Virus record (IMG/VR): IMGVR_UViG_3300030109_004461
Location: 1-24,438 of that record
DNA length: 24,438 bases
Strand: one strand, 5' to 3'
Source: a virus
The notes below the pieces were generated by a model, which saw only the letters and a program-made list of their open reading frames with translations, searched no databases and had not been told where the DNA came from. A program made the translations under genes and the position numbers. Shown one piece after another: positions 1,516-23,732 of the stretch (position 1 is the stretch's first letter; each line of letters opens with the position of its first letter).

Positions 1516-2928
1516 TTATGACGCTGTTAGGAATCTTTCAACGTCAAAATATAGCGTAGTATTACTAGATGGTGCGTTTGTTATTTCTATATTACCAGTT
1601 ATTGTAGCTGTTCTACTAGCGTTGTTAAATGTTAACGTAATACCACTTTCTAAGGTTTGTGCTGCTGAAAAAGTTAAGTTACCAGCGCCACTAGTAGCGG
1701 CTTTAGCTGTAACCAACGGATCAGCTACACTTTCGTTTATACCTATTCCAGAAGCCGTGCTTGTATTAGTCATTATACCACTTTGCTGTGCTACAGGTAT
1801 AGTTGTACTATTACTTACAGCGGCCGACGTTGTAGTTGTAGTGGCTGTTAAAGCTACATCAACATCAGTTAAAACAACTTGCATACCGGTCATTGTTTGT
1901 ATTTGTTTAGCACCATAAGCATATATTTTAACACTATCACTTTTTAAAGCGTCAGCCTGTTGTTTGTTAAATATAACTCTACCTTGCCAAGATGTTACAA
2001 CACCATCTGTAAGTACTTGTGTAAAACCAGAATTATCTATAGCTGGTAAATTAACATCGTAATTAACCCGTGAAACTGATGATCTAACATCTCCCTCAAT
2101 AGGTGCTGGGCCCTTACCAACACTCTCTACTTCTACCTCTGACTCTGTTGATATGTTAAAACTATCTTGATAGCCTGATAAAAAAGAACCAGCGGTTACG
2201 TTTGTACCACCTGGATCTAGTATCATACCTTCACTTAAACCAACAGTATTGTTTATTGGCCATCTATAGTATGTTGAGCCACTAACGTCTTCCCTTTCTA
2301 TAGGGTCTCCAGCAGAACCTATTGTTCTAGTAACATATGCCGCAAAATCATTTATGTCTGGTTTTTTATCTATTTTTATAGATTTAGCTATAGCTGTTTG
2401 CACAACTATAGTAAAAGGAGTTTTACCAATGTTTTTTCCTCTAGACGTTGTTATAGTATCTGTTGTTAAAGAAAAAGAACCAAAACCAGATAAGGATTTT
2501 GGTGTTACCGCTGTAAGTGTTATTGTTACGTCTGTATATTGATAAATCTTTTTTTGCAGCATTATAGAGTCAGAACCAGTTGATAAGTTTATATCTAAAG
2601 TTCCATCTGGAAATCTAAACTCTTGATATGGAGCGTGCTTAGTATCAAACTGTTGTTCCGCAAATAAATAAATATTATAATGGTCATTATCTGTAATAGC
2701 TGGAAACGTAATGTCTCCAAAGTATACTCCACCAGCTATCCTTTGATTTCTTAATTTTGAATCTGCAGCGGCAAAAGATTTTGTACTAAAATTATAAAAA
2801 TGACCATCTTCATTTGTAATTTGTAAGCTAAACACAGCACCATTAGTTCCAGTTATACTAAAAGTTCTAACTTCTCCCGCGGCAGCTATATCACTTAAAT
2901 CTAAATTAAAATTTCTTATTACTTTCAT
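1516..2928 (-). CDS. Beta-rich probable tail or fibre protein, 470 aa
   Basis: A Thr/Ser/Gly/Asn-rich, almost wholly beta-strand sequence with no cysteine, as expected of a virion surface or fibre protein. Residues 1-120 form a well-ordered opening (MKVIRNFNLDLSDIAAAGE, later NEDGHFYNF and GGVYFGDITF). A middle part (about 125-320) carries further beta-rich segments, and a low-complexity Thr/Ser/Ala stretch (about 355-380) leads to a C-terminal beta domain. There is no enzymatic motif, signal peptide or coiled coil. It starts at ATG 2928-2926, eight bases after the preceding stop, so it belongs to the tail operon. Its place after the nozzle gene and the 125-aa protein suggests a distal tail or fibre component; a head decoration role cannot be excluded. 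I recall related openings in marine phage contigs but no tested function. Confidence 0.8.
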   Translation of the reverse strand: MKVIRNFNLDLSDIAAAGEVRTFSITGTNGAVFSLQITNEDGHFYNFSTKSFAAADSKLRNQRIAGGVYFGDITFPAITDNDHYNIYLFAEQQFDTKHAPYQEFRFPDGTLDINLSTGSDSIMLQKKIYQYTDVTITLTAVTPKSLSGFGSFSLTTDTITTSRGKNIGKTPFTIVVQTAIAKSIKIDKKPDINDFAAYVTRTIGSAGDPIEREDVSGSTYYRWPINNTVGLSEGMILDPGGTNVTAGSFLSGYQDSFNISTESEVEVESVGKGPAPIEGDVRSSVSRVNYDVNLPAIDNSGFTQVLTDGVVTSWQGRVIFNKQQADALKSDSVKIYAYGAKQIQTMTGMQVVLTDVDVALTATTTTTSAAVSNSTTIPVAQQSGIMTNTSTASGIGINESVADPLVTAKAATSGAGNLTFSAAQTLESGITLTFNNASRTATITGNIEITNAPSSNTTLYFDVERFLTAS

Positions 2929-2936
2929 ATTTTTTA

Positions 2937-3314
2937 TTATTTACTACTTTCAAATAAATCGGAGCTAATAGCAAACAACTCTGCGTCCTTTGAGTTATCA
3001 TTATTTACAAACTTTGCCTCAGCATAATATCCTAACATACTAGATGTGTTTACTACTTTGTTTTTAGCAAACATTATAAAGTCACCAGCATTAGGCGTGG
3101 TGATATTGGCCTCGTCATATATTACGTTTACTGTGGAAATACTTCCACTAGACATATCTATAACTGTACCTATTTTTTTAACATTACCTAACCCACTAGT
3201 ATCAAAACTATGATAAACACTAGTGTTTACAGAAGTGTAGTAAACATCATCTCCAATTTGTAAAGATTCGTTTAATTCATTATTAAATGTTAGTTGTATT
3301 ATCTGTATTGCCAT
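2937..3314 (-). CDS. Small beta-rich virion protein, 125 aa
   Basis: Begins MAIQIIQLTFNNELNESLQ and ends SDLFESSK. It consists of short strands and turns with Asn, Ser, Thr and Val prominent, without cysteines or membrane segments. Blocks such as GDDVYYTS, DFIMFAKNKVVNTSS and LGYYAEAKFVNN look like a family I have met in marine phage genomes next to the tail nozzle gene, where it is left as a hypothetical structural protein. I chose the ATG at 3314-3312, two bases after the nozzle TAA. A longer reading from 3350 adds 12 low-complexity Asn-rich residues and would overlap the nozzle gene. The tight spacing points to translational coupling. Possible roles are a tail tip accessory or a small adaptor between nozzle and fibre; the sequence does not decide. 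Confidence 0.8.
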   Translation of the reverse strand: MAIQIIQLTFNNELNESLQIGDDVYYTSVNTSVYHSFDTSGLGNVKKIGTVIDMSSGSISTVNVIYDEANITTPNAGDFIMFAKNKVVNTSSMLGYYAEAKFVNNDNSKDAELFAISSDLFESSK

Positions 3315-3316
3315 AT

Positions 3317-6300
3317 TTATGTTATTGTTATTGTGTGTGCTGTTGGCCAACCTGACTGTGATACTTGTGGGGTAGCTGTATCAAAATAGTGTGTACAAAT
3401 ATTCTTTATCCTAACTTGAATTTGCATACCAGTTTCTAGTCTTCCAATAGCTCCATTAGGATCTATAGTTAATATCATACCAGTAGCTCCGTCAACATAA
3501 CCATAATTTAAAGTTGCATCGGTACTGTTTTCAAAGATAGCTATAGGCGCTACTGGAGTAATTGCTTGGCCAGCAAGAGGGTAAGTTTGAGGAGTAAACC
3601 CAAGTGATGAATCTTGAATAGGATAATTTCCATATCTCTCTACACCGTGAAGCGTACTAAATTCAAAACCACTAGGCGTTACACCACTACTGCTAGCGGT
3701 AGGATAATGTATTGCCTCCCAACCGTTCCAACTATCGTTAGAAGTTTGTCTCCATCTAACCTGTACAAATAATAATACCTGATGGTTTACCCCAGCGCCA
3801 GGATTACCGAAAATATCGTCAGGGTAATCTGTAATTGGAAGTTGTAGACCAGGACCTGTAGGGTTTATATAATAATTATCACCAACACCACCAGGTCCAC
3901 CAGGCCAGAACACATCATTTGAAGTTCCTAACGTCATTTGTTGATATTGACGTCCATTATATATGTTTTCTTGTGGGTTTGTAAAATGATTTATAAGTAA
4001 GTGTATTTCATCATGCTGAGTTGCACCAGTACCCCAGCTGTGGGTGTAATTGGATATCTGACTACTGTCAAAAGGTTGGCAATCAAAACAGCTTCCATCA
4101 TCAATAGTCACGTTTGGATCGTAGTTAACTTTACCAGGTGTCGCACAACCTACACACGAGTAGTCGCAAGAATAAGAAGAATACTGATGATAAGAGTAGT
4201 TAGCGTTAGAATTATAATTACAAGCGCCTGTATCCGTACAACCAGATGTTACATTTAACTGATAACTTGTTGCATATGCAGCAAACCCACCACCAAGGGA
4301 TAGCTGGGTGAATGGGTGTTTAATATCCATACCAAGGGATGTAAACGTTAAGAAAGGAGCAGCTGTCCCAGCTAAGTGCCAGTAATATCTTACTTGTTCA
4401 GCACTCATCATTGGTATTTCAAGAACACCTGGGCTAGTTACATATGAGCCTAACTGCCACAACTGACCACCCCCAGGAGACGTAGCATTATTGATTCCAC
4501 CTCCTATCAACGAAGCAGTTATCACAGTCCCATTGTGATCGGTTACTGGATCCACCGAAATTCCAGTGGTAACGTTATTAATTGGACATTGCGAAGCATC
4601 TACATTAAACACGATATCTCCATCTACGCCTGATGTTGAATTAAAAGATATTATTGGGTCGTTATAAGTACAACATTCATTATTACCAGCTCCAGCTCCA
4701 CCATCAAAAAGAGCAGTTCCAATACTAGTACTATTACAAGGGGTGTTTACAGTAACTGTAGAACCACCAAAAACAATATCGTTACCATTAGCATCTTGGT
4801 TGTAGTTATTTGCACCACCAGCTGTACCATCACCCCAAAGAGTGTAATCATCAGTACATCCATAAACATATGGTGTACATGATCCGTCGTCTACAGTTGC
4901 GTTTGAGTCATAGTTATATGCTCCCGCGTCCGTACAACCGTTTACTATAAGCGTTAAACATTGAGACTGATCACTTATAGTATAAGAGGAATCATACTCC
5001 ACATAGTCATCATCCATACAACCTACACATGAAGAGTATTCACATGAACCATTATCAACGGTGGCTGTAGGATCATAGTTACAAGCATTAAAGTCAGTAC
5101 AACCAGGGTTTGGAGTTACTAATGTTGTAAAGTCAACTTCTAAAAAGTCGTTAGACGAGCTATTAGCACAAACAGCTACAACCTCAACGGTTATATCCGT
5201 GCTGCCTGGAAGACCAGTTAGCTCGTATTCTACATTTGCGCCCCAAGTAAGAACGCCTGCAGAGGTGTCGTTTATATTAATATTTGCACTATAACCATTG
5301 TCACCAGTAACATATAAATTATAACCAATAGTGTTAGCTGATTGTGGAGACCAATCTTGATGTTGCCATTGTAATATCGCTTGGTTGTGTAATACGCTTG
5401 CACTTACAACTATAAGAGAATTATTAGCGTCTGTAGGGTTATTACCACCACAATATAAACACAGGTTAGTATTAGCACATGTTCCACCATCGTAGTTATC
5501 TGCAGAAGCATCACCACAATAAGTACAACAACTATTCCAACCAGGACTAGGATTATAACTAATATCATTAATAATATCACCGTTACAATCAGTAGTATTT
5601 AAAGCGTCGTAATCACAAGCTAGTGGATCTGTACAACCACTAATACCACAACAACCACCAGGTGTAAAGTAAGGGTCAATATAATTTGTATTTGCTAAAA
5701 CATCATAACAATCGTCACCCAAGTAAGTACATCCTAAAACTGTAGGCTGACACTCTACACATGAATTTTGCGTGCTTGGATCTGTGCAGTTTGTGTTATA
5801 AGATGCGCTATAATTTAAATTTACGTTATATGTTTCACCATCACTACCAACAAACGTTGTACCATCCGTACATCCATACGATAATGCTATACATGTTCCG
5901 TTGTTTTGGTTTGCATCTGGTTCGTAATTAAATGCCAATGGATCAGTACAGCCTAAGTAAATACAAGAACCATCATCAGTGTTGGCGCCAGTTGTAATGT
6001 TATTAGCCTGTATAAGTATACTAGCATCTTGAACACAACCAAGAACTACAGCGACACAAGAACCATCATCAATATTAGCATTTATATCATAATTAAACGC
6101 TGTAGGATCTGTACATCCACCTACAGATATAACAGCTGAACTAACTAAAGTACCAACTCCTTGAATAGCAAAACTAGCAATATCAAAACCACCTGTCGGT
6201 ACACCACTATCGGTTGTTGATATATTTTTACCTCTTATATAATTAAACCACTTACCTTCTTTTTCTATAAATTCATTTAATGTACCCTCTTGTTTATCTG

Positions 6301-9300
6301 TTTTTATGTACTCTACATACCAACCGTTTTTACTACTTAAATTATAATACTCACCATCTGTAAATTGTAAAGTACTAGTACCGTAGCTTTGGTAACCGCT
6401 AAGTTCTGATGATGTAGTTGTTGTTGATTGTTTTATTCTAGCTTGACTACCTTCGTAGTTTAATGTATTAAAAGATTTAACCGCGCTTGGACTGTCATTT
6501 AACAACACGGTAATAGAAGAATCATTTGAGTGAGTGTAAAATCTATTTCTATCTACACCCTCAACATGATGTAACCATAGGTTACCATTTTTTATAGTAT
6601 AATATTCGTTAGCACAACTAACACCTTCATCAGGTATAAAACTTTTAAAACTAACCCATCCTCTTACGTTTTCTTTAAAGGTAACTGTTTTAGGATTATC
6701 TTTATGCAGGGTTACATTGTACGAGTCTTTTTTATCATCATAACTACCTGTTATTTTATCACATAGCTTTAAGTTATCTCTAAACCAATCTTTCATGCCA
6801 TGTTCAGATATAGCTGTCAAACCATCTTTAGATAATCTCATAACAGATCCTCTTACTTTATCTGTAAAGTATGCTCTATAAGCTTCAGAAGCAAATGACT
6901 CTGGGTTTTTTGATATACCATATTCTCCAGCAAAAGGAATTGTTTGTCCTAACACATTTGTTGTTGCTGTTAACTGTGGATTACCATCAGCATTAAATAC
7001 AGCATCTTTGTTAGCTAGTATTCTTAAAATTCTATCTTCACATAATGCTATTAAATCTCCATCAGCTGTTGATCTAGAGTGTAGTTTTTGTATAGATCCG
7101 TATGTAGGATTTATATCTTTTGTTATTTTTTCTGCTTGTATAAACTGATTTAAATTATTTACAACAGATGATTTATTATAAATACCTGAATATATTAAAC
7201 CATATTTTCTATGCTCTTCGCCATATTGTTCTGCTAGTGTTGTTGATGCTTTAACACCGTTAGCTATAAATGGTTGATTAAAATTATCTCTAACTCTATT
7301 TGACTCTACACCATTACCAAAAGAATAACAGTTGTGCCAATTTAACCAATGCCAACTGTTATATAGTTTTGGTCGTATTTTAATTTCATTTGTTTCACTA
7401 GGGTTGTTTGGATTTACTATACTCTCTAAAACAGCGCAACCTAATATAGTACCATCTGGTCTAGTTATATTTAATATTGTATTGAACGGTATATCTATTG
7501 GGTTAAAAGAAGTACTTAATATAACATTGTTATTATATACTGATGTTACAAAAGTGTTTTGATCTAAAACACCTAACTTATCTACAACTAGAGAGTTAAT
7601 AGGTATAACAGTTCGTATCGTACTATCATCTAAATGAAGAGCATTATAACCACTTGCTTCGTAGTAAATATCTAAATCTGTAGATTCTTTTGGCTCTGTT
7701 TCCCAAACAGCTGGATTTTTAGGTAAAACCTCATCATCAAATATAGGTTCAACTATTTCTAAAGTATATCCAACAGCCGCTACACCAGCAAAAGTATCAG
7801 CTATACCCTTACCTTGATTAAAAAAGTTTATATTTTTAGCTGAATTAGGACTAATCCCATTCATTCTAAATTGTTTGAAAACTATATTTTCACTTGTACC
7901 TATGTTAGCTATATCTACAGTAGAGCTAGCATCTAAATCTACACTACTAGTATCGTATCTTTTAAAATATAAAGTATGGTTATTAAGATTATTTTGAATA
8001 TGAACAAGTACAGCTGGATTATCTAAAGTACCAGCGCTAGCGCCAGATACTAACACCATACCAACCTCAACGCTACTACCATCACTCGCAAATAAACTAT
8101 CAACAGTTAATCTGTTAATAGCAGCTACAGCACCAGCAGATGTTGTTAGTGTTACCTCTTTACCGTTACCAATTACACCCTGTCCAAATTGTCCAAATGG
8201 ATTCCACGCTAAAGGCTTGTCTAATGATATTTTCCAGTTTCTTGTAAAATTACTAGGTCTAAACCAAGTTGAAGTGGCTATAAACGGATGTTGAATAGCA
8301 CTGTTACCATATATATTACCACCTAGAACATCATCAATTCTTTCATTACCACCACCTGCACCAGGTGCCATCTTACCCGAGTCTAAATCTAATGCTCTAG
8401 TTTGGTAGTTCCAAGATTGTTCTCCCCACTCACTGTTTCCATCCGCTCTGTGTTGACCACCATGACAATCTTCAAATCTAACTCTATAAAAATTATTAAT
8501 ATTACCGCTTATCGCATAAACTGTTTCAGTAGGATCTTCTTTCCACCTAACTAGAGAGCCGGGTATTAAATTTTTTATAAAAATAGCTTCAGCACTAACA
8601 TATCTATCGTTAGCTTCTTCTAAACTAAAGAAATCGTGATCTTTATTTTTATCACGATCACTACGCTGTATAGACCAATCTCCACCTTTTTTATTTATAT
8701 TATTATTCTTATCTTTAGGTTGTATACCTCCAAAACCTAAGCTCATGCTCCAACCGGAGTCAAATATTTGAACACCACTAAATTGACCTTCGGTACTACT
8801 AAACTGCATAGCAACAGAGTCTTTCCAACCTTGATTACCCTCGTCTGGATTACCAAATTCAAAGCTACCTTTACTTATACAGTTATCAATAAACCAAACG
8901 TCTTCAAACGCTTGGTCTTCAGCATTGTCTACAGGGTGCAAGCTTGCAACCCTATCGTCTATACCATGCGGATGGTATTCTTCATTACCATTTAAACCAC
9001 CTGCATATGCTGGTTTCATGTTTATTCCTCTAAAAAACGCGTCAAATGGCATCCACCTTGAACCATCTCCATATGTGAGAAAGTTTTTAGTATTACCACG
9101 TTTTTCAGGGTGTGGTGTTTGACCTATTCTAATAGTAGCCTCAACGTAGTCTTTCCAATATAATTCACCTTTGTAAAAATTACCAACATTAGCAACATAT
9201 TCAAGACCCCATGGCCCACAGCTTTCACAGTAACCACTATGTGCTACTCTTCTTGATAAACCTGGGTGACCACTCTGATTGTTGTTTTCCCAGCCTTTAA

Positions 9301-12300
9301 AAATTAAATCATGATTTTCTATGTTCTGTCCAGAACTTTTCATCATGTATATTTTTTTAGAGGCAATAACCCTGTATTTAGTATTGTCTTCTGCTTCTTC
9401 TGTTTTTATGTTTGCTTTAAAAGGAGCGTCGTTATATATTTTTACAAAAAACCTTCCATCAAACTGTGGTGAGTTTTCTACTTTATATTTCCAAATACGA
9501 ACATTAACATTGTCTTTAATTTCATTTGAACCAATTCCCGTAGGGTCATTTGTAAACCTATTCACATCTGAACCAAACCTACCATCTATTGTGATATTAA
9601 AACAAGTTGGATCGTCAGCATCAGTATCTCCTGCTTCTATATCTATACTGTTAATTCTATACCGTTCAGAAGTATCGTTATCTTTTTCAAGCTCGAAATA
9701 TAATACTCCATCTTTTATCTCGTGTAATCGACGAGCACTTGTAGTTTTAAAAGAGTCATAGTTTAACTTAATCGTGCTTGTGCTTTGAAGTGGTAAACCA
9801 CTATAAGCAGTTCCATCTATAGAAAATACATCGTTACCACTAGTATCACCATTAATGTGTTTTGCATTTATAATTAAAAGCTTTTTTGTTTTTATATAAT
9901 CTGGAGCTTCATTTTTTATTGATAAAACCTTGTATTTAGCTTCATCTTTTACAACACTGTTACCACCAGCACCTTTCTTTAATATTATAAAAGTGTCTTC
10001 GTCTATTTTATTTCTATCAGTAGAAGGAAAAGCTAACCAAATATTACCATCTTCAGCATCGTAATATCTATCCATAGCCATGTTGTAATATTCTCCAGAG
10101 GTTTCTTTTATAAAAAACTTAAAATACTTCATGTCTTGAGGAGCGTTTTGCCCTATAAAACCAACTCTTAATCTATTACTACTACTACCATCTTCTTTTG
10201 CTAGCTTTATAGTTCCAGTTGGATTAGACAATACTGGTGTTTCTCTACCGTATTCATCCATAAAAACAACACCTAATTGATATTCTCTTAAAGACTTTAT
10301 AGATTGAACACTAGTTAATGTTGCTGGATTAAAAGATGTTAAAGATGTTTTGAAATTTGGATAATAATGATCTGATCCTCCAGCAACTAGCATATCAAAG
10401 TTTTGCCAATAGTTACCGTAAACCAGCCTATTACCAGACACCTCTTGTGCTAGAGCTTTTTTAGGAACGTTGTCCCAAGGTCTTAATAATTGATTTGATG
10501 GTAAAACAGCATAAATAGTATCTGATGTTATTTCGTACTCATTTAACATCCAATTATTGTAAACTCCACCTTCATTTGTAATATTTTTTTCATCATCAGG
10601 CTTTATAGTGTCTACTATATAAACATTAGGAGAGGTATCTTCTTTATATAATATATCTATAGCCACAACGTCTGATGGTATATCGTCTGTAATAAACTCT
10701 TTAACTAAAACAGAGCTTACTGTATTACTCATACCTATGTTGTAACCTTTTACAGGGTGATAATCAAAACCACCAGGTCTAAATGCTACTTGTGAAAACG
10801 GAGCAAAAGTAGAATACTCTCCATCTTCATACTTGTATCTATAGGAAAATCTAGGAAATTTAAATTCGAATAATTTTTCCTCTTCGTCAAAGAGGTCAAC
10901 AACGTATTGCTGTGGGTTTATAGGATCGTTTCCATCATCACCATTTAAAGGGCTTCCTTCTATTGATGTAATTTCTATCTCAACGCGAGCTGTAGCCCAA
11001 GCCGTTGAATTAGTCTGTGAGTTTACATCAAAAGGTAAACCGCTATTATTTATTATATCATCAGGTGCTCCTGATGTATAATAATTAGGATCTGAAGTGT
11101 CTTCTTTAAAGCTATTATATTCCCAATCTGTAATCTCACCTTTTATAGTAAAATTTTGTAGAGGTATAGCTGGCATTTCACTATTACCAACTATAGGTTC
11201 TAATACTAAAGCACTACCTTTTTTACCACCACCCTTAGCTCTCCAAGCTAATTCAAAGTCATGGTTATTTTGAATATCTGTTTCTATAAAAAATTGAACA
11301 GTATCACCAACATTTAATGTTGAAAAGTTTGTTATTTGACCTTTAGAAGAGCTTATAAAAGAATGTTCATTTGAAGTCTCTAAAGAGTTTACATACATTT
11401 TACCTGTATAAGACAGGTTACTTTCTCTACCAGTTAAAAGATCTATTACTGGAGGTGACTTTGGAGATTTTTTTATAACAGTAAGATGTTCTTCTCTTAC
11501 AGGTATTTGCCACTGGCTAGGGCTAATTTCTAAACTATTATTTACTAAAAAAGTATGTATGTTTCCACTTGGATCTGTACCCTCTACACTTCTTGGTATG
11601 TTTATTTTTTTAGGTTCAGAGAAGTTGTCTGTCCAAAACAACATATCATCAATTATATTGATACCTGTTATTAACCTGTTTGAATCAAAATTTAAAGCTT
11701 TATTTGGCGCTTCAAAATATAAATATTGTTTATATCCATCAGGACAACCAGGACAGCTTCTATTAAGAGTGTTTTTTAAAACAACCTGTTGTGGTAAACC
11801 AGCAGCAGGTGGCACTTGTAATATCATGCTGTGTTTGTTACCAACCGGCACAACTTCTGCCGTCATTGTAGCACAATCAACAACATCAAATATATAATTA
11901 GTATTGTCATTTTGATAACTAGTGTAGCTATTAGGATCTAAACACCCTCCGTCTGGCCAGGTTGGGCTTTGTTGTATTTCTAACTGTTGGCCATTTGTTA
12001 CTAGTATATCATATATTTCATCTAACCACTTAAATGATGATGGGCCTATATTTACCGTATTTGTGTTTGATGGTAATGACACTTCCATAAACACATCAGC
12101 TCTAAAATCACCGGCTCCCGCAACTGTTACAGAAGGATCGTATCCAAAATAACTATCGGATCCACCTGGTGGCCACCCGTCTTCATTACCCCAATCAGGA
12201 TATGCAGCATTAACAGAGACCATGTTAAAGGAACCTGCGAATACTATTTCTTTATATAACTTAGGAGGATCTTGGGTGTTTTGAGTATCAATATGTGGTA

Positions 12301-13192
12301 TTGAAACATCGTTAATTTCTAAAATCTCAGCACCTTCATCTGGATCGTCTATTCCCGTTGTAAAAGAAGCAAGAAGTGGATCATTCACAACTCCATTTTC
12401 ATCCCAAACTCTTATATGGTCACCCACAGCAAAAGATGCATTCCAATTAGCAGTAGGTACTAATATTTTCCCATTAGGAATACAGTCATTGGAACCACTG
12501 TTTACACTGGAACAACCCCCGTTACCAGCAATCATTAATTCAACATCACCAATAGGACCACCGGTGTATGTAGTGTGGAAATCAAGTACTGGAGAGTATT
12601 GAATAGGAATATGCGCTAAATCACCGACACTTGAAACTTCAGCTGGATTAGTAGACACTATGTTACCACCTGTTTCAACGCCAAAAGCAACAACACTCAT
12701 ACCTACAGTTAAGTTTTCTAACAAATCTTCATCATCAAGAATTATAGTGTTATCAACAGCAGCCTCTGTATTATCAACAATTACAGTGTGCTTATCTACA
12801 AAAACAGGCTCACAATTACCAGTGTGTGTTTTACGCATTATTAAATCCTTACCAAATATAGGTGTTGCCATACCACCATCTACAGCATCTACAATATCTT
12901 GAAAACTACCGGTGTCAGGCCCAGCTACTAACCAGTATAACGTATCATTTTTTTCATCAGAAATAGAGCCAACACAAGAAGAACCAGGAGCTATTGGATT
13001 CCAAGTAGAAAAACCTGTATTAGTACATCCAACCGCGTTACCTAATATATTTTGAACAGAACCAACGTTAGAGCCTTCCGAAGTAGACACTTGTACGTTT
13101 ACCGCATCTCGATATTCTCCATTAGGAACAAGTCTCTCATCGAGATCCTTATTCATTTTACCACCGGTAAAACTATGCTTAATTTCTGGCAT
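3317..13192 (-). CDS. Giant tail nozzle protein with C-terminal Cys-repeat adhesin region, 3291 aa
   Basis: One uninterrupted gene. The N-terminus (GGKMNKDLDERLVPNGEYRD, about residues 11-29, then an NVQVSTSEG block) is the opening I associate with podoviral tail nozzle or stabilisation proteins of marine phages. Further core-like blocks are LITGINIIDDMLFWTDN (about 504-520), FPRFSYRYKYEDGEYSTF (about 777-800), YQLGVVFMDEYGRETPVLSN (about 967-990), RSTADGDLIALCEDRILRIL (about 2035-2055), and FIPDEGVSC and GKWFNYIRGK (about 2180-2322); these suggest a beta-propeller-like fold with very long insertions. From residue 2359 the protein changes character: about 13 two-Cys repeats to residue 3035, an FN3-like domain (about 2591-2693), an unassigned domain (about 2844-2983) and a Trp/Gly-rich C-terminus (3036-3291). 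By inference the first part closes the head and conducts DNA, while the tail-distal part binds the host. It is much longer than any nozzle I know, and starts one base after the stop of the preceding connector gene. Confidence 0.85.
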   Translation of the reverse strand: MPEIKHSFTGGKMNKDLDERLVPNGEYRDAVNVQVSTSEGSNVGSVQNILGNAVGCTNTGFSTWNPIAPGSSCVGSISDEKNDTLYWLVAGPDTGSFQDIVDAVDGGMATPIFGKDLIMRKTHTGNCEPVFVDKHTVIVDNTEAAVDNTIILDDEDLLENLTVGMSVVAFGVETGGNIVSTNPAEVSSVGDLAHIPIQYSPVLDFHTTYTGGPIGDVELMIAGNGGCSSVNSGSNDCIPNGKILVPTANWNASFAVGDHIRVWDENGVVNDPLLASFTTGIDDPDEGAEILEINDVSIPHIDTQNTQDPPKLYKEIVFAGSFNMVSVNAAYPDWGNEDGWPPGGSDSYFGYDPSVTVAGAGDFRADVFMEVSLPSNTNTVNIGPSSFKWLDEIYDILVTNGQQLEIQQSPTWPDGGCLDPNSYTSYQNDNTNYIFDVVDCATMTAEVVPVGNKHSMILQVPPAAGLPQQVVLKNTLNRSCPGCPDGYKQYLYFEAPNKALNFDSNRLITGINIIDDMLFWTDNFSEPKKINIPRSVEGTDPSGNIHTFLVNNSLEISPSQWQIPVREEHLTVIKKSPKSPPVIDLLTGRESNLSYTGKMYVNSLETSNEHSFISSSKGQITNFSTLNVGDTVQFFIETDIQNNHDFELAWRAKGGGKKGSALVLEPIVGNSEMPAIPLQNFTIKGEITDWEYNSFKEDTSDPNYYTSGAPDDIINNSGLPFDVNSQTNSTAWATARVEIEITSIEGSPLNGDDGNDPINPQQYVVDLFDEEEKLFEFKFPRFSYRYKYEDGEYSTFAPFSQVAFRPGGFDYHPVKGYNIGMSNTVSSVLVKEFITDDIPSDVVAIDILYKEDTSPNVYIVDTIKPDDEKNITNEGGVYNNWMLNEYEITSDTIYAVLPSNQLLRPWDNVPKKALAQEVSGNRLVYGNYWQNFDMLVAGGSDHYYPNFKTSLTSFNPATLTSVQSIKSLREYQLGVVFMDEYGRETPVLSNPTGTIKLAKEDGSSSNRLRVGFIGQNAPQDMKYFKFFIKETSGEYYNMAMDRYYDAEDGNIWLAFPSTDRNKIDEDTFIILKKGAGGNSVVKDEAKYKVLSIKNEAPDYIKTKKLLIINAKHINGDTSGNDVFSIDGTAYSGLPLQSTSTIKLNYDSFKTTSARRLHEIKDGVLYFELEKDNDTSERYRINSIDIEAGDTDADDPTCFNITIDGRFGSDVNRFTNDPTGIGSNEIKDNVNVRIWKYKVENSPQFDGRFFVKIYNDAPFKANIKTEEAEDNTKYRVIASKKIYMMKSSGQNIENHDLIFKGWENNNQSGHPGLSRRVAHSGYCESCGPWGLEYVANVGNFYKGELYWKDYVEATIRIGQTPHPEKRGNTKNFLTYGDGSRWMPFDAFFRGINMKPAYAGGLNGNEEYHPHGIDDRVASLHPVDNAEDQAFEDVWFIDNCISKGSFEFGNPDEGNQGWKDSVAMQFSSTEGQFSGVQIFDSGWSMSLGFGGIQPKDKNNNINKKGGDWSIQRSDRDKNKDHDFFSLEEANDRYVSAEAIFIKNLIPGSLVRWKEDPTETVYAISGNINNFYRVRFEDCHGGQHRADGNSEWGEQSWNYQTRALDLDSGKMAPGAGGGNERIDDVLGGNIYGNSAIQHPFIATSTWFRPSNFTRNWKISLDKPLAWNPFGQFGQGVIGNGKEVTLTTSAGAVAAINRLTVDSLFASDGSSVEVGMVLVSGASAGTLDNPAVLVHIQNNLNNHTLYFKRYDTSSVDLDASSTVDIANIGTSENIVFKQFRMNGISPNSAKNINFFNQGKGIADTFAGVAAVGYTLEIVEPIFDDEVLPKNPAVWETEPKESTDLDIYYEASGYNALHLDDSTIRTVIPINSLVVDKLGVLDQNTFVTSVYNNNVILSTSFNPIDIPFNTILNITRPDGTILGCAVLESIVNPNNPSETNEIKIRPKLYNSWHWLNWHNCYSFGNGVESNRVRDNFNQPFIANGVKASTTLAEQYGEEHRKYGLIYSGIYNKSSVVNNLNQFIQAEKITKDINPTYGSIQKLHSRSTADGDLIALCEDRILRILANKDAVFNADGNPQLTATTNVLGQTIPFAGEYGISKNPESFASEAYRAYFTDKVRGSVMRLSKDGLTAISEHGMKDWFRDNLKLCDKITGSYDDKKDSYNVTLHKDNPKTVTFKENVRGWVSFKSFIPDEGVSCANEYYTIKNGNLWLHHVEGVDRNRFYTHSNDSSITVLLNDSPSAVKSFNTLNYEGSQARIKQSTTTTSSELSGYQSYGTSTLQFTDGEYYNLSSKNGWYVEYIKTDKQEGTLNEFIEKEGKWFNYIRGKNISTTDSGVPTGGFDIASFAIQGVGTLVSSAVISVGGCTDPTAFNYDINANIDDGSCVAVVLGCVQDASILIQANNITTGANTDDGSCIYLGCTDPLAFNYEPDANQNNGTCIALSYGCTDGTTFVGSDGETYNVNLNYSASYNTNCTDPSTQNSCVECQPTVLGCTYLGDDCYDVLANTNYIDPYFTPGGCCGISGCTDPLACDYDALNTTDCNGDIINDISYNPSPGWNSCCTYCGDASADNYDGGTCANTNLCLYCGGNNPTDANNSLIVVSASVLHNQAILQWQHQDWSPQSANTIGYNLYVTGDNGYSANININDTSAGVLTWGANVEYELTGLPGSTDITVEVVAVCANSSSNDFLEVDFTTLVTPNPGCTDFNACNYDPTATVDNGSCEYSSCVGCMDDDYVEYDSSYTISDQSQCLTLIVNGCTDAGAYNYDSNATVDDGSCTPYVYGCTDDYTLWGDGTAGGANNYNQDANGNDIVFGGSTVTVNTPCNSTSIGTALFDGGAGAGNNECCTYNDPIISFNSTSGVDGDIVFNVDASQCPINNVTTGISVDPVTDHNGTVITASLIGGGINNATSPGGGQLWQLGSYVTSPGVLEIPMMSAEQVRYYWHLAGTAAPFLTFTSLGMDIKHPFTQLSLGGGFAAYATSYQLNVTSGCTDTGACNYNSNANYSYHQYSSYSCDYSCVGCATPGKVNYDPNVTIDDGSCFDCQPFDSSQISNYTHSWGTGATQHDEIHLLINHFTNPQENIYNGRQYQQMTLGTSNDVFWPGGPGGVGDNYYINPTGPGLQLPITDYPDDIFGNPGAGVNHQVLLFVQVRWRQTSNDSWNGWEAIHYPTASSSGVTPSGFEFSTLHGVERYGNYPIQDSSLGFTPQTYPLAGQAITPVAPIAIFENSTDATLNYGYVDGATGMILTIDPNGAIGRLETGMQIQVRIKNICTHYFDTATPQVSQSGWPTAHTITIT
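4088..6118 (-). repeat. Array of about 13 GCTD...DGSC cysteine repeats (residues 2359-3035)
   Basis: In protein terms the unit is GCTD-x2-A-x-NY-x3-A-x2-DDGSC, about 21 residues with one Cys at each end, which probably pair. Near-canonical copies are at residues 2359-2379 (first, 6118-6056), near 2409, at 2697-2717, near 2745 and at 3015-3035 (last, 4150-4088). Other copies are stretched by insertions (for example GCTDGTTFVGSDGE and GCTDDYTLWGDGTAG) or degraded (GCVQDASI, GCTYLGDDC, GCMDDDYVEY, YCGDASADNY), so the array has diverged and expanded. Nucleotide identity between copies is low, indicating old duplications. This repeat is familiar from secreted and surface proteins of marine Flavobacteriia; its fold and ligand are unknown to me. 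Confidence 0.85.
5114..5420 (-). other. Fibronectin type III-like domain inside the repeat array (about residues 2591-2693)
   Basis: Between repeat 7 and repeat 8 lies a Cys-poor segment of about 100 residues with the FN3 strand pattern: a Leu/Val-rich A-B region ending in AILQWQ, a GYNLYVTG strand, YELTGLPGSTDITVEVVAVC matching the usual L-x-P-x-T-x-Y/V-x-V-x-A-x-C block, and a closing VDFTTL strand. FN3 modules are common in phage tail proteins and bacterial adhesins. Assignment is by pattern only. Confidence 0.65.
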
Positions 13193-16351: not shown

Positions 16352-17857
16352 TTACTTCATTAACATAAAGTTGTTAGCACCTTGAGTAATTAAACATCTT
16401 TCAGATAAGAAGTGCATTTGCATCGCATCTAAAGCAGATGTAGCCGCTCCAACAGAACCAGTAACCCAAGTTTTTAATCTTCTGTTATCAGTTTGAGAAG
16501 CTCTATATCTTACGTGTAAGAAAGGACGTTTCATGTTTCTACCTAACATTTCATCATAAACTGAAGAAACACCAGCTGGAACAACAACACCTCTAATAGC
16601 TGCACTACCTGCAGTAGCATTAATACCACCTCTTGTAGCTTTGTCATTTAAATATCTCATATCAGATTTGTAGAAGTCATAAGAACCTCTTCGGAATCCA
16701 GAGAAACCTAAGTTAAGTGCCATGTCTTCAGAGTTGTCAAATACCCCATAAGAAGTACCACCAGCTCCATAAGAATTCATTGAAGCTAACATGTCATCAA
16801 TTGCTAACGAAGTAGATCTGTTAACAAACATCATGTTTTCTTCAATAGCACCTTGATTATCAAACTCAGCTAAGATAGCGTCAAATTCAGCTAAATCAGT
16901 AGCTGGATTAACACCAGTAACACCTGAAGTAACATTACCTCTATCAGTAATAGCGTCAAATAAACCTTGAGTACCTACACCACTATCACCTAAAGTTATA
17001 CCACCAGCAGCTAAAGACAAATCAACAACTGTACTGTTAGAACCAACAACACTTTCTAGCATTGCCATTTCTAAATAATCAGTAAAACGAGCTCTAGTAT
17101 CAGCTTCAGCTTTTAAGTACCATAAGTAACCACCTCCACCTTCTTCGGTAGACACTTCAACCCATCCAATTCTAGACGCATCAGAACCTGATACTTCGTA
17201 GTAATCTTTCATAATAATTGGTTTATTAGAAAAAGATTTAAAACTTGGTTGGTTAGCTTCGTGTTTATCAGCAGCTGTTAATGGATTAGCTGTATCAACA
17301 GCACTGTAAGAAACACCTTTTGCGTATTCAGAACCAACAACTAATAAAGTTGAAGCTCCAACACCTGTAGCGTGACCAGTTAAATCAGCCTTGTCATAAG
17401 GTTCAACCTGTATAGTAGCCGTATCAACGTCAGTCGCTAAACACATTGTAGTTATACCAGCACTTGATATAAGTACTAAATCATTAGCTCTAACACCGTG
17501 ATCAGCTAAAGTAAACCCAGTAGTGTTACCGTCTATATCAGCTGTAACTTCAAAAGTACCCGCACTTTCTGTACCACCCGTAGTTGCTACTGTACCTTTT
17601 ACTGAAATATGTAATCTTGACTGTTCAGACCAAACAACCTGATCGGATGTCATAGCCTCTTCAGCTCCTACTTGTGAAAGAAATCCTGAAATAGTTCTTT
17701 TACCGAACACTTCAGCTTCTTTTTCCATAAGATCTGGTAAATATTGTTGAGCCCAAGTTGTATCTGATGAACCCGTAAAATCTAAGTAATTTGTAGATAG
17801 TGTTTGTTTTTGAGTAGTTGGAACACTATTTAAATTACTTCCTCCTGTAATTGCCAT
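16352..17857 (-). CDS. Major capsid protein, HK97-type, 501 aa
   Basis: It follows portal and scaffold genes and is followed by a strong terminator, as usual for the most expressed head gene. The N-arm (1-60) includes WAQQYLPDLMEKEAEVFGKR. Residues 66-83 (EEAMTSDQVVWSEQSRLH) lead into a beta-rich, Gly/Thr-rich insertion (about 88-180). The core resumes with PSFKSFSNKPIIMKDYYEVS (about 205-224), GYLWYLKAEADTRARFTDYL (about 243-262), NQGAIEENMMFVNRS, LNLGFSGFRRGSYDFYKSD and a C-terminal RPFLHVRYRASQTDNRRLKT. These blocks match marine phage capsid proteins I know. No N-terminal cleavage site or separate protease gene is seen, so maturation by proteolysis is not indicated. The insertion may form a surface domain between capsomers. 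The start ATG follows an A-rich leader, 20 bases after the scaffold stop. Confidence 0.9.
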   Translation of the reverse strand: MAITGGSNLNSVPTTQKQTLSTNYLDFTGSSDTTWAQQYLPDLMEKEAEVFGKRTISGFLSQVGAEEAMTSDQVVWSEQSRLHISVKGTVATTGGTESAGTFEVTADIDGNTTGFTLADHGVRANDLVLISSAGITTMCLATDVDTATIQVEPYDKADLTGHATGVGASTLLVVGSEYAKGVSYSAVDTANPLTAADKHEANQPSFKSFSNKPIIMKDYYEVSGSDASRIGWVEVSTEEGGGGYLWYLKAEADTRARFTDYLEMAMLESVVGSNSTVVDLSLAAGGITLGDSGVGTQGLFDAITDRGNVTSGVTGVNPATDLAEFDAILAEFDNQGAIEENMMFVNRSTSLAIDDMLASMNSYGAGGTSYGVFDNSEDMALNLGFSGFRRGSYDFYKSDMRYLNDKATRGGINATAGSAAIRGVVVPAGVSSVYDEMLGRNMKRPFLHVRYRASQTDNRRLKTWVTGSVGAATSALDAMQMHFLSERCLITQGANNFMLMK

Positions 17858-19092: not shown

Positions 19093-21513
19093 TTATCTAG
19101 GGTCAAATACACCTAAATCAAAACCACCACCTAATATATCATTACCTGCTGACTCGAAATTTTTAGGTGGTTTACCTGTTTGTCTTTGATCAATCAACTC
19201 GCTTTGCTGTGTTGCTTGAATCTTTGTTCTTTCATCTTTTCTATCTTCTTTCTCTTTTTCTTTACTTTTTTGCCCGCTTACCTCTAATCCTTTTAATTGC
19301 ATGTTCATTTCAAACTCTAACTGCATTAATTCTTTTTTATGCTGAACTTCTTGCATCATTTTTTGAGACTCTAATTGAGCTTTAGCTTGTTCTAATTCTA
19401 ATTGATTACCAACCATAGCTTGATTTTTCTGCATCTCCGCTTGAGCTGCAACCTGTTGGGCTTGAGCATTTGCATCGGCTTGAGCTTTAATATTTTCTTG
19501 TTGGATTTTTTGATCTCTTTCTATCTTTTTCTTTCTACGTAATTTTAACATTTGGTTTGCTAGTTTTACGTTTTTAATTTCTCTAAGATCTATAGCATCT
19601 TCTAACTCTATATTTTGCTGTTGAAGTGCCATTTGAATATTATTTTCTAGCATTTGCTTTTCTTCTTCATCAGGTGCTAGTTCTAAAAATATACCAAAAT
19701 CATAAAGATGTAACTCTGACATCTCATGTAAAGTAGCAACATTATGTACTCCTATAGCTTGTATAAATGCATCAGCAGTTGGTGAATACTCTATAATATC
19801 AGATATTCTAAGAGATAAACATTCAGCAACTTCAGACGTTAAAAATAATCCAGCTTGTAATATATGTCTTGTAGCTGTGTTACTGTTTGCAGCTGCTAGT
19901 TTTTGTATTCCAACTAAAGTGTTTTTATCTGGTAACGTTCCATCTCTAGCCTCGTTTAACCCGGTTACATCTCTTATCATTTGAAGATAATAATTGTAAT
20001 TAGCTATAAGGGCTTGCATTTTATTTCCGCCACTACCACTTGTTATTTCTTGAATAGGTACTTTACCTGGATTCATGTCTCCATCTTGAGTAAATGATCT
20101 ACCTATAACAGAACCTGTTTGAAAGAACATGTTCAAAGCTTCTTGTGGGTTGTAATTAGTTCCGTTACCTAAATCTATTTCAGCTAAACCGTCGGCATCA
20201 AGATAAACACCATCTGGTACCATTCTAGACATTACCTGTTGTAGCTTTAAGTGTGTTAACTGTATCATATCAGCAAAACCTGTAATACGCTTTACTAATG
20301 AATCTATTTTACCATTATACATTCTAGGTGCTACAATAGCGTAATTCATTTTAACCTTAGTAAAATCACTTTTAGGTCTCATCATATTACTTGCCATTTC
20401 CCACTTAAGTAGTTTGTCTGTACCTAAAATCATAGCGCCTTCATACAAACACTCTATAGATCTTAAAAGCCTAGAATAACCACCCTCCATGTTTTGTGGT
20501 GGATCAAAAGTATCTTCTTTAGGTATTATTTTTTCTGCTCCAGTTCCAGTTTCTTTAACCTTATAAACTTCATTCATATAAGTTTTATAATTAAAATATA
20601 AAACTTGAATTTTATTATTATCCTCTTTGTCTACAGAGTATCTACTACTATTGTTATTTCTATTATATGATTTGTTTTTCATTATATCTTCCAAGTCACC
20701 CTCTGTAAGATGTGGAAATTGTTTAGCTAATTCATTTACAGGTATAGATTTTACTTCACCAACATAGTATATGTCATCAAAATAAGGAGAGTCTGTATAA
20801 GAATAAACTAAATTAGCTGGGTCTACATATTCTATAGTAGCACCTTCAGACGTGTTAAAATTAGTTTTAACAGCTCCAATACCTACTACTGTTAAATCGT
20901 AATAAAATTGTTTTTTTATTAATTCGTATTTACTACCTTCCATCAATACGTTTATAGCTTGTTCTTCAGCTAGCTCTACAGCTTGCTTGTAATTAAGCTG
21001 CATATGTAGTTGTAGTTCTTCTTCTGAATCAGGTAATGTTTCTTTATTGTTTTCATAAAGATTCATATTAAACTCGTTCATTGCCATATCATTAAAAACC
21101 TTGGATTCCATATCACGCATCATAGACTCCATATACTCTGTTCTTTTACTTACACCATAAGAATCTTGAGAGTACGCTTTTACGTCATACGTTCTTTCAG
21201 CAATACCGTTAACAACTATATCTACAAATTTTGAAATAATTGGAACTGGTTTCCAATCTAAATTTAAATAGGACAAATCACCATTAATCGATAATTCATC
21301 CTTGTATTTTTGAATAGACTGCTCACCTCTAGCGTACAATCTTAAATTATGAAAATTATTTGAGTTGTTTCTATATCTATTGCGGTTTCTATCGTTATTA
21401 AACCACTCCGTTTCTATAGCTTTTGCTATCTTTAAACCATAGTCATAGCTAAGCTTTTCAGCGTCACTAACTGTTTGACTCGGGAAATAACTTTTCATGC
21501 CAGACTCTGCCAT
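19093..21513 (-). CDS. Portal protein, 806 aa
   Basis: It lies directly after the large terminase gene (five bases apart). The N-terminal part has RLYARGEQSIQKYKDELS and WKPVPIISKFVDIVVNGIAE (residues about 58-106), the stem and crown approach of crAss-like and marine podoviral portals as I know them. A helical EAEEQAINVL-type region and FYYDLTVVGIGAVKTNFN with YVDPANLVYSYTDSPYF (about 180-245) follow, then MNYAIVAPRMYNGKIDSLVK, THLKLQQVMSRMVPDGVYLD and RDVTGLNEARDGTLPDKNTL (about 395-550). The last 180 residues are an unusually long Gln/Glu/Lys/Ala-rich coiled coil (about 640-770), probably the barrel or internal extension. It forms the dodecameric DNA channel at one vertex and docks TerL and the ring proteins. 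Total length suits the large portals of this group. Confidence 0.9.
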   Translation of the reverse strand: MAESGMKSYFPSQTVSDAEKLSYDYGLKIAKAIETEWFNNDRNRNRYRNNSNNFHNLRLYARGEQSIQKYKDELSINGDLSYLNLDWKPVPIISKFVDIVVNGIAERTYDVKAYSQDSYGVSKRTEYMESMMRDMESKVFNDMAMNEFNMNLYENNKETLPDSEEELQLHMQLNYKQAVELAEEQAINVLMEGSKYELIKKQFYYDLTVVGIGAVKTNFNTSEGATIEYVDPANLVYSYTDSPYFDDIYYVGEVKSIPVNELAKQFPHLTEGDLEDIMKNKSYNRNNNSSRYSVDKEDNNKIQVLYFNYKTYMNEVYKVKETGTGAEKIIPKEDTFDPPQNMEGGYSRLLRSIECLYEGAMILGTDKLLKWEMASNMMRPKSDFTKVKMNYAIVAPRMYNGKIDSLVKRITGFADMIQLTHLKLQQVMSRMVPDGVYLDADGLAEIDLGNGTNYNPQEALNMFFQTGSVIGRSFTQDGDMNPGKVPIQEITSGSGGNKMQALIANYNYYLQMIRDVTGLNEARDGTLPDKNTLVGIQKLAAANSNTATRHILQAGLFLTSEVAECLSLRISDIIEYSPTADAFIQAIGVHNVATLHEMSELHLYDFGIFLELAPDEEEKQMLENNIQMALQQQNIELEDAIDLREIKNVKLANQMLKLRRKKKIERDQKIQQENIKAQADANAQAQQVAAQAEMQKNQAMVGNQLELEQAKAQLESQKMMQEVQHKKELMQLEFEMNMQLKGLEVSGQKSKEKEKEDRKDERTKIQATQQSELIDQRQTGKPPKNFESAGNDILGGGFDLGVFDPR

Positions 21514-21518
21514 ACTTA

Positions 21519-23732
21519 TTATTTAATTATTTTAGACATGTTTCCTCTGTTTTGATATTTAGAAACATGTATGTTTAATTTAGGTTTTTCTATTTTCGCG
21601 TTTGGTGCATACAAATGTCTGTTATTTGCCATTATTGCTAAACCAGAACTTATTGATGCATCAAACTTTGTTCTTTTGTTTATATCAAATCTACTCCAAT
21701 CATTAAGTAGAGAGTTAAAATATAAATCTCCAAATGTTCCGTCTCGCTTCATACCTACATGATCTTGAATATACATCTCAATTGCAGCAGCATGAGCTTG
21801 TTTTATATCTTCGCTAGAGTTTGGTATACCTCCAACTTCTTTTTCTGCAACAGACAATTTATTCCATGTTTTGTCTGGCCTATTCATACTAAACCCTCTA
21901 TATCCTCTTCTTCTTAAATAATACAACAACCTAGGTTTATTATTTTCTGCTAATATTGGCATACCATAAAATACTAATGCCATTAAAACATCTTCAAAAA
22001 AGATTTCAGCCGTAGGTGGTCTTGATAAGTATTCTAAAAAGAAGCTATTTGCAGGAGCGTCCTCCATACTAAACCTGGTTAAGCCGTGTAATGCTCCTTT
22101 AGATCCTTCTCCATCTACGGTCCCTGATATATCATAAGAGTCACAACCAAATGCTCCCATGTGTTCGTTACCAGGGTATTTAATACCATTTTTAATTACC
22201 ACCTTGTTTTGTATTCCAGAAGGTGGAACCCAACTAACTTTAAACCTACCTTTTGGGTCTGGATAAAATATTACTTGAGAATCTTTAATACCACTTACCC
22301 ATTGAAAATTACCTTGAGTAACTCCTAAGGTTCTAGACATCTCTTCGTTATAATCTATCTGCTCATATATTTTAACTAAGTTAAATATACTGTTTTTTGT
22401 TTCATCACGAAAAGCGTGCTCTGTTGTTCTTGGAAACTGACGGTAAAACTCATTTAAAGCGTCTTGATCATCTTTTAAACCATCAGCTTCGTTTTGCCAA
22501 CTATCTATTACGCCTATATCTATTAATTCACCATCTGGGGCGAATACGTCTGAGTCAGGAGTATCAAATACTGGAAGTCCGTACTCGTCAATAAATCCTT
22601 CGTAGTTCCATTCCATTGGGATAAACAAAGAGTATAAACCAGATTTTGTCTGACCGTTTCTATTTCTTTTAGTGACATCGGATGCGTTATATAGTTTTTT
22701 AAAATTGTCTCCACCTTTATCTAATGCGTTTGAAGTAGAGCCCATCATACATTTACCAACCACTCTACTACCTAATCGTAAACATGTTTTTGTAACTCTC
22801 CAGTTGTTTAATATATTATCAGGTCTTTCCCACTTACCACTTTCATCATGAACTAATAAATTTAGTTTTTCACCGTCATAACTATTGTCTCCTGTATTTT
22901 TCCAATCAATAGTTGTATCTAGACCTTGTATATCTTCTAACTTCTCATTAGATGTTATTTTTTTACGAGTAAACTTACTTGCTGGTACTCTATATGCTAA
23001 CTCTGACTTTGGTCGATCCATACCATCTTGAATCGGTTTAAAGAAAAATGGATAATTTATACTTATTGGTACCACTTTATCCGTAAACATTTTTTTAGCA
23101 TCAGCACCTGTCTTAGAAAGTATCCCATATCTACTATCACTTGCAAGTGTGGCTAAATTAACTGTTTCTGCAGATGACATGAACGAAAAGCCTGATCTTC
23201 TGTTCTTTAAGTAACACATACCATAACATCTTTTATCCGCTTTGCAAGCTTCCCAAAATATGTAAAACAATCTATTAGCCTCTCTAAAATCAGGAGCACC
23301 AACATCAATCTTACTCCATTGTAGATACATATAATGCGTACCTGTTATGTATGTTGATTTTTCATTATTGTTAAACCAAAAACCCTCATCTCTACGTTTA
23401 AACTCTTCGTCTATATAATCAAACCATTGCTCTTTTGATTCTTCTGGATAACCTCTCCAATCAAAAATACTTTTAAGACGAGTTAACTCTTTAGGTTGTT
23501 CGAGTTTTACCCATTTTTTCTTTTCGTGCATGTACACTCGCACTGGTTCCAACGGCAAGCCAATTCGCAAACCTTGGATTTCATATATTTCACCGATTTT
23601 TCCAGTTTTTGAGATAACAACGATATCATGTTCTTTATTGTATCCATATTTCCATTTTTTACCACGATTCATTCTCGTGATTGTTGTTTTTTTAATAGGT
23701 TCTATAACCCTAAATAAATTCTGCTCGTACAT
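21519..23732 (-). CDS. terL: Terminase large subunit (packaging ATPase-nuclease), 737 aa
   Basis: The two-domain packaging motor is visible. In the ATPase part (about 120-400), a deviant Walker A-like loop reads LKNRRSGFS (175-183). Walker B is LNLLVHDE with D296-E297, and the coupling motif is MGSTS (330-334). In the nuclease part, GCDSYDIS gives the first Asp (D531, with D534), FFEDV gives an acidic residue (E580 or D581), and TKFDASISSGLA supplies the last Asp (D691), as in RNase H-type TerL nucleases. The extra N-terminal 110 residues form a charged beta-rich domain before the ATPase. The start codon overlaps the previous stop as TAATG, so it is coupled to the 91-aa candidate small subunit. 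The gene order TerL, portal, scaffold, capsid is standard. Confidence 0.93.
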   Translation of the reverse strand: MYEQNLFRVIEPIKKTTITRMNRGKKWKYGYNKEHDIVVISKTGKIGEIYEIQGLRIGLPLEPVRVYMHEKKKWVKLEQPKELTRLKSIFDWRGYPEESKEQWFDYIDEEFKRRDEGFWFNNNEKSTYITGTHYMYLQWSKIDVGAPDFREANRLFYIFWEACKADKRCYGMCYLKNRRSGFSFMSSAETVNLATLASDSRYGILSKTGADAKKMFTDKVVPISINYPFFFKPIQDGMDRPKSELAYRVPASKFTRKKITSNEKLEDIQGLDTTIDWKNTGDNSYDGEKLNLLVHDESGKWERPDNILNNWRVTKTCLRLGSRVVGKCMMGSTSNALDKGGDNFKKLYNASDVTKRNRNGQTKSGLYSLFIPMEWNYEGFIDEYGLPVFDTPDSDVFAPDGELIDIGVIDSWQNEADGLKDDQDALNEFYRQFPRTTEHAFRDETKNSIFNLVKIYEQIDYNEEMSRTLGVTQGNFQWVSGIKDSQVIFYPDPKGRFKVSWVPPSGIQNKVVIKNGIKYPGNEHMGAFGCDSYDISGTVDGEGSKGALHGLTRFSMEDAPANSFFLEYLSRPPTAEIFFEDVLMALVFYGMPILAENNKPRLLYYLRRRGYRGFSMNRPDKTWNKLSVAEKEVGGIPNSSEDIKQAHAAAIEMYIQDHVGMKRDGTFGDLYFNSLLNDWSRFDINKRTKFDASISSGLAIMANNRHLYAPNAKIEKPKLNIHVSKYQNRGNMSKIIK

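Follow-up and report, generated by a model that had tools for sequence, protein, structure and literature searches.

A tail muzzle protein with a long, variable adhesin-like C-terminal extension in an uncultured crAss-like phage

A single gene of an uncultured crAss-like phage encodes a protein of 3291 amino acids in which a crass-type tail muzzle (nozzle) is followed by a large, cysteine-rich C-terminal extension. On balance we favour the view that this is the hexameric tail muzzle of a short-tailed crAss-like phage and that its C-terminus bears a fused, modular arm for receptor binding. The sequence analysed (the window) is the whole of IMG/VR record IMGVR_UViG_3300030109_004461, a genome fragment of about 24 kb (24,438 bases).

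All the long genes of the window are carried on the minus strand (Table 1). In order they encode a GroES-like protein, the terminase, the portal, a 395-aa protein, the probable capsid protein, a 281-aa protein, two probable tail-barrel ring proteins, the 3291-aa protein, a small gene that we term SLQ, the 470-aa gene, the 162-aa tail-fibre-type protein and others. These genes form the virion block of a crAss-like phage. The closest cultured relatives found were the Cellulophaga phages phi38:1, phi40:1 and Calle (Pervagoviridae), the Flavobacterium phages elemoA and kin, Maribacter phage Panino, Tenacibaculum phage Gundel, and Cellulophaga phage phi13:2 and kin. The host probably belongs to the Flavobacteriales, and the habitat is probably marine. 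The 438-aa probable ring protein is about 150 aa longer than its positional counterpart in phi40:1 (283 aa), a difference that points to a large insertion, and the 162-aa protein has a cupin-like look as judged by eye.

Table 1. Features of the window, with residue numbers referring to the 3291-aa protein
Feature	Position	Strand	Basis
Terminase large subunit	21519..23732	-	phrog_6681, E 1.2e-171
Portal protein	19093..21513	-	phrog_6547, E 4.8e-148
Virion protein, major capsid protein by size and position	16352..17857	-	phrog_13704, E 5.5e-93
Virion protein, probably tail-barrel ring protein, 229 aa	14518..15207	-	phrog_14543, E 1.5e-35; ring role from gene order
Virion protein, probably tail-barrel ring protein, 438 aa	13197..14513	-	phrog_13977, E 2e-42, best stretch residues 7-127; ring role from gene order
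Muzzle (nozzle) protein with adhesin-like C-terminal extension, 3291 aa	3317..13192	-	Single frame; phrog_14478, E 3.3e-130
Muzzle core, residues 1-2347, ending in KWFNYI...QGVG	6152..13192	-	Viral-contig and phage homologues; C-terminal 480 residues fold like crAss001 muzzle
crAss_MUZ_C domain (PF25729), residues 2214-2321	6230..6553	-	Pfam E 7.4e-6, 26.7 bits against a cut-off of 27
C-terminal extension, residues 2348-3291, 944 aa	3320..6151	-	45 Cys; lacking in 12 relatives
Cys-repeat block 1 (GCTDPxAxNYxxxAxxDDGSC type), residues 2359-2581	5450..6118	-	Motif scan; related repeats of marine Flavobacteriales
FN3-like domain, residues 2594-2690	5123..5413	-	Pfam fn3 E 6.1e-4; seven-stranded model; Foldseek FN3 chains
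Cys-repeat block 2, residues 2697-2841	4670..5104	-	Motif scan
Domain without detected relatives, residues 2845-2982	4247..4660	-	Searches of extensions, viral contigs, Pfam/PHROGs/PDB
Cys-repeat block 3, residues 2984-3038	4079..4243	-	Motif scan
Terminal domain (tip) without detected relatives, residues 3040-3291	3320..4075	-	Database and contig searches
SLQ gene, 125 aa from ATG 3314	2937..3314	-	Profile search; phrog_18548
470-aa gene after SLQ	1516..2928	-	Gene-order table
162-aa protein, 'short tail fiber' families	975-1463	-	phrog_12032, E 4e-27

The identity of residues 1-2347 as a crass-type tail muzzle is established. Homologues of this core are present at 78 viral-contig loci and in Cellulophaga and Flavobacterium phages. 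A profile of its last 480 residues aligns with residues 1055-1279 of phi-crAss001 gp44 (hhalign E = 1.6e-7), the hexameric gated tail tip of that phage (PDB 7QOL, 7QOK; PMC10172136), the homology extending over the C-terminal propeller and MUZ_C part. A model of residues 1868-2440, built from 62 sequences with a mean pLDDT of 59.5, places 7qol and 7qok first among PDB entries in Foldseek (E = 4.6e-8). Structural comparison with 7qol (VIA) gives Z = 11.3 over 178 residues, in which residues 161-457 of the model correspond to gp44 1059-1371. The last residue of gp44, 1371, thus falls at about residue 2324 of the window protein, so that the extension is additional to the muzzle. Searches of the PDB by sequence, using the whole protein and the core profile, returned nothing significant, and the link to 7QOL is made by fold and profile comparison only. 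Other nozzles share the propeller fold of the core, i.e. those of GP4 (Z = 11.2), P22 (gp10, 9.2), SU10 (9.2), T7 (gp12, 8.6-8.9) and Sf6 (8.3), but are intermixed with unrelated propellers at similar Z, so that for these the fold match alone is weak; those of T7 and P22, moreover, were not found by sequence search with the window protein. The gene order is also that expected of a crass-type muzzle, which follows one or more ring proteins, with the major capsid protein upstream. The earlier note had read the first part of the frame as a nozzle and proposed comparison with those of T7, P22 and crAss001; its assignment is borne out by the phrog_14478 and near-cut-off crAss_MUZ_C matches together with the relationship to gp44. 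At 2347 aa the core is larger than the usual nozzle, compared with the 1371 aa of gp44, which ends where the core ends.

The muzzle and the extension are encoded by one uninterrupted frame. The frame runs from ATG to stop with no internal stop codon, as the earlier note had it. A separate contig (L002), 88-90% identical over the junction part, reads through the junction, and dN/dS (NG86) comes to about 0.13 for the core and about 0.18 for the first 129 residues of the extension. The length of the open frame (3291 codons), the second contig and the purifying selection rule out a chance frame or a lone assembly artefact. The last conserved muzzle motif, KWFNYI...QG[ILV]G, ends at residue 2347, and the composition changes directly after it, with 19 cysteines in residues 1-2347 (0.8%) and 45 in residues 2348-3291 (4.8%), the first being Cys2360. 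A sharp boundary near residue 2350 had been noted before and stands. The cysteines beyond it are unevenly distributed, being nearly absent from 2870-2984 and 3039-3265, corresponding to the two domains that have no matches.

The extension is a succession of three Cys-repeat blocks with other domains placed between and after them. In a structure prediction the Cys repeats and the FN3 domain emerged, the latter fairly well, while residues 2806-3291 are mostly below a pLDDT of 50. Within the first repeat block the pLDDT is mostly 65-95 up to about residue 2510 and lower beyond, with many residues of the first repeats at 80-95. The FN3-like domain that had been read from the sequence is upheld by its modelled strands, by a Pfam fn3 match spanning approximately 2599-2679 that falls below the curated cut-off, and by FN3 chains among the top Foldseek matches for residues 2594-2690. 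The Cys repeats of the extension have their relatives mainly in large proteins of marine Flavobacteriales. Many of these proteins have ends that by eye resemble T9SS sorting domains, and three (L099, L109 and L142) end in an Lcl_C-like motif, also by eye. Tips of Lcl_C type are found in three phage extensions (L051, L060 and L076) at E = 7e-6 to 6e-5, below the curated Pfam cut-off. GCTD-type Cys repeats are present too in virion structural proteins of the Synechococcus phages S-CAM3, S-CAM4 and ACG-2014j, which infect a different host group. A marine virus with matching repeats, AG-345-P14, is recorded as Kyanoviridae. The two terminal domains of the window protein gave nothing above chance by sequence in the fetched extensions, viral contigs, phages, Pfam, PHROGs and PDB, so that the adhesin reading rests on the relatives. 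By eye, the end of the window tip (QIQVRIKNICTH) resembles that of the L020 tip. A search for a TR/VR-like repeat pair of a diversity-generating retroelement in the window, L051, L060 and L076 found none; all are fragments, and such an element could lie outside them.

How general is the extension among related phages? We fetched the 78 viral-contig loci, and 63 muzzles, including the window and two cultured phages, have a closed 3′ end. A Cys-type extension is carried by 32 of these (189-1297 aa, median 779), while 12 have none (10-47) and 11 have short extensions of another kind (214-331); in seven the SLQ domain is fused to the muzzle, and in one the chain is split near the junction. The existence of 12 relatives lacking it shows that the extension is not essential to the muzzle. 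The Cys-type extensions join at a shared point in about 32 closed muzzles, where L040 is identical to L039. On a tree of the core the presence of the Cys-type extension changes some 9-10 times, at least three of the changes being forced by well-supported branches. Sequence change is far faster in the tips than in the cores. In pairs of extended phages with 60-80% core identity, a tip match of at least 120 aa is found in only 11 of 171, whereas at a core identity of at least 80% it is found in three of three. The core of L060 groups with those of L043 and L053 (SH-aLRT 98). Its Lcl_C-type tip, however, is similar to the tips of L051 and L076 (45-48%) and does not match L043 or L053, showing that tips have been exchanged between lineages. 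The C-terminus thus differs between relatives in presence, length and sequence, a check that the earlier note had proposed, and the protein shows one feature expected of a phage receptor-binding protein, a variable distal domain on a conserved anchor. One extension-less phage has an additional 648-aa gene with 21 Cys directly after the muzzle (L079:16046-17989), possibly a detached counterpart.

The position of the extension is related to that of the SLQ domain. The SLQ gene of the window could alternatively begin at a TTG at 3350, which would overlap the muzzle. In profile searches it is homologous to a domain at the muzzle C-terminus of phi40:1, elemoA, Gundel and five contigs, and to the detached C-terminal muzzle piece of Panino and phi13:2. 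The family phrog_18548 joins MUZ_C and the SLQ domain and appears to be such a detached piece. SLQ directly follows the muzzle in 29 of 31 extended phages, and all 12 extension-less phages have a gene of 400-800 aa between the two, mostly a relative of the 470-aa gene. Viewed from that gene, it and its homologues (about 400-1166 aa) swap places with SLQ according to the muzzle extension. Longer forms of SLQ with two matched stretches are seen in L029 and L075. The extension may have been inserted between the muzzle and the SLQ domain, or SLQ may have been released as the extension grew; the arrangement fits either direction.

A second form of extended muzzle is found in the cultured Cellulophaga phages phi13:2 and phi18:3 (Pachyviridae). 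Like that of the window, their muzzles bear a long adhesin-like C-terminal extension with a variable tip, but it joins inside the propeller, at the equivalent of about residue 2174, and lacks GCTD-type repeats. The phi13:2 muzzle (L149:4298-9868) breaks at this point into gp120, which ends with about 490 extra residues containing Big_9/cadherin-like domains (E = 4e-21), and gp121, containing the remaining muzzle and SLQ. The corresponding genes of phi18:3, gp114 and gp115, are annotated as structural from MS/MS proteomics of the virion, and gp114 aligns with gp120 along its whole length. Compared in 50-residue windows, the two muzzles are 96-100% identical to about residue 1450; beyond this, identity is 82% in one window, 47% and 50% in two more, and 93% in the final one. 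The same phages (L153-L156) have separate spike or fibre-type genes, gp84-gp87, which diverge after a conserved start and do so far more than the muzzle tip. There are further local differences in gp124, gp125 and gp127, and the last gene (gp127/gp123, about 1950 aa) has a local hypervariable stretch. The muzzle tip is one of several variable parts in this pair and, given the greater divergence of the spike-type genes and the differences elsewhere, need not set host range.

Retention of these spike-type genes is one of the points in favour of a different role for the extension, as a general module of surface adhesion or decoration that raises the rate of encounter, binding host polysaccharide, mucus or particles weakly through host-type Cys repeats and FN3 while specific recognition stays on separate fibres or spikes. 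Decorating Ig-like domains are common in phages, and among the recognisable parts of the extensions FN3/Ig-type domains and repeats are the most frequent. Yet the divergence is concentrated in the tip, and some tips are of Lcl_C type, for which specific recognition is the better fit. We consider the decorating role unlikely, though the strongest of the competing explanations, and receptor binding by the extension the probable one. A mainly structural role, in which the extension would protect or stiffen the muzzle as a collar or spacer stabilised by disulfides or calcium, is distinctly improbable. The Cys repeats are indeed the shared part of the extension, and disulfides stabilise the tail barrel and hubs of crAss001 (PMC10172136), but such a collar should be conserved throughout the clade, whereas the extension is absent from 12 of 63 muzzles and its ends are hypervariable.

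The continuity of muzzle and extension has exceptions. The muzzle frame of L050 ends at ...KGKEWL, and the Cys-type module lies on an overlapping second open reading frame that starts ATGGCTATAA and includes both the last muzzle strand (SFQGLG) and 40 Cys; the cause could be a genuine split, a frameshift signal or an error in sequencing. The earlier note had named a split near residue 2350 in relatives as a point against fusion; this is the one case found, and the other Cys-type relatives (about 32) keep the fusion intact in their closed frames. The muzzle chains of Panino (L147), L015, L027 and L063 are interrupted elsewhere and gain little or no extra sequence there. Division of the muzzle into two genes at several points, in cultured phages included, suggests that a break in the chain is tolerated. 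Such breaks, in phi13:2 as well, and the overlapping frame of L050 would be in keeping with a functionally neutral fusion, in which a receptor-binding protein separate by nature became joined by loss of a stop codon and gains nothing from attachment, but with about 32 closed frames fused against one split, and the second frame of L050 retaining the last muzzle strand that would anchor the module to the muzzle, this is the least probable explanation of all.

If the extension is a receptor-binding arm, the following arrangement can be envisaged. Residues 1-2347 would be the muzzle proper, plugging and gating the tail channel. Past the last muzzle strand the chain would continue as a rod of Cys repeats of flavobacterial type, stabilised by disulfides and with the FN3 domain in between, and end in variable domains that contact the host surface. 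A hexamer is expected for the window muzzle only by homology with 7QOL, and by analogy there would presumably be six arms per virion, standing stiffly around the gate that holds back DNA and cargo. Because the arm would belong to every muzzle subunit, contact with the cell could pass directly to the gate. We infer the surface exposure, the disulfides and the mechanical coupling of arm to gate. At a fixed slot the arm would be swapped or lost from one phage to another, SLQ being a separate downstream gene when the slot holds a long arm and fused to the muzzle in some phages. The full proposal is of a fixed slot at the muzzle C-terminus that gains, exchanges and loses adhesin arms of host origin, so that six receptor-binding arms are covalently part of the gate and contact directly opens it. 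This proposal is tentative, and we hold it at somewhat less than even likelihood.

The known systems offer partial parallels. The muzzles phi40:1/phi38:1 gp97 (Pervagoviridae) and elemoA gp25 share the core, with approximately 30-35% identity over the aligned parts, and the gene order up to the muzzle, but at 1324 and 1470 aa they have SLQ fused and no adhesin-like extension. In phi-crAss001 the muzzle gene similarly follows that of a ring protein. In T7 and P22 receptor binding is on separate fibres or tailspikes. The earlier generalisation that nozzle and host recognition are usually on separate proteins does not hold strictly, as the tail tubular proteins of Vibrio phage OWB bind receptor, without such a fusion (PMC7241545), and the crass domain of the muzzle is thought to touch the cell (PMC10172136). 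The length of crass muzzles is known to vary by insertions in the crass and IG2 domains, with no C-terminal arm (PMC10172136), and variable BACON repeats occur on neighbouring tail genes (PMC6949934). In the open-licence papers searched we found no description of a C-terminal muzzle extension, nor of an adhesin arm that recurs at the muzzle C-terminus and is exchanged between phages.

How the muzzle opens on contact with the cell is unsettled in crass-like phages, and the cell-sensing part inferred so far is the crass domain. A receptor-binding arm within the muzzle chain, if correct, would make the question of gate opening testable, and a cultured pair is at hand in phi13:2 and phi18:3 on Cellulophaga baltica, which have near-identical muzzles and different tips. 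The findings suggest that a tail protein of flavobacterial phages acquires surface modules from the host, and for metagenomic crAss-like phages the muzzle genes may be worth examining for host range.
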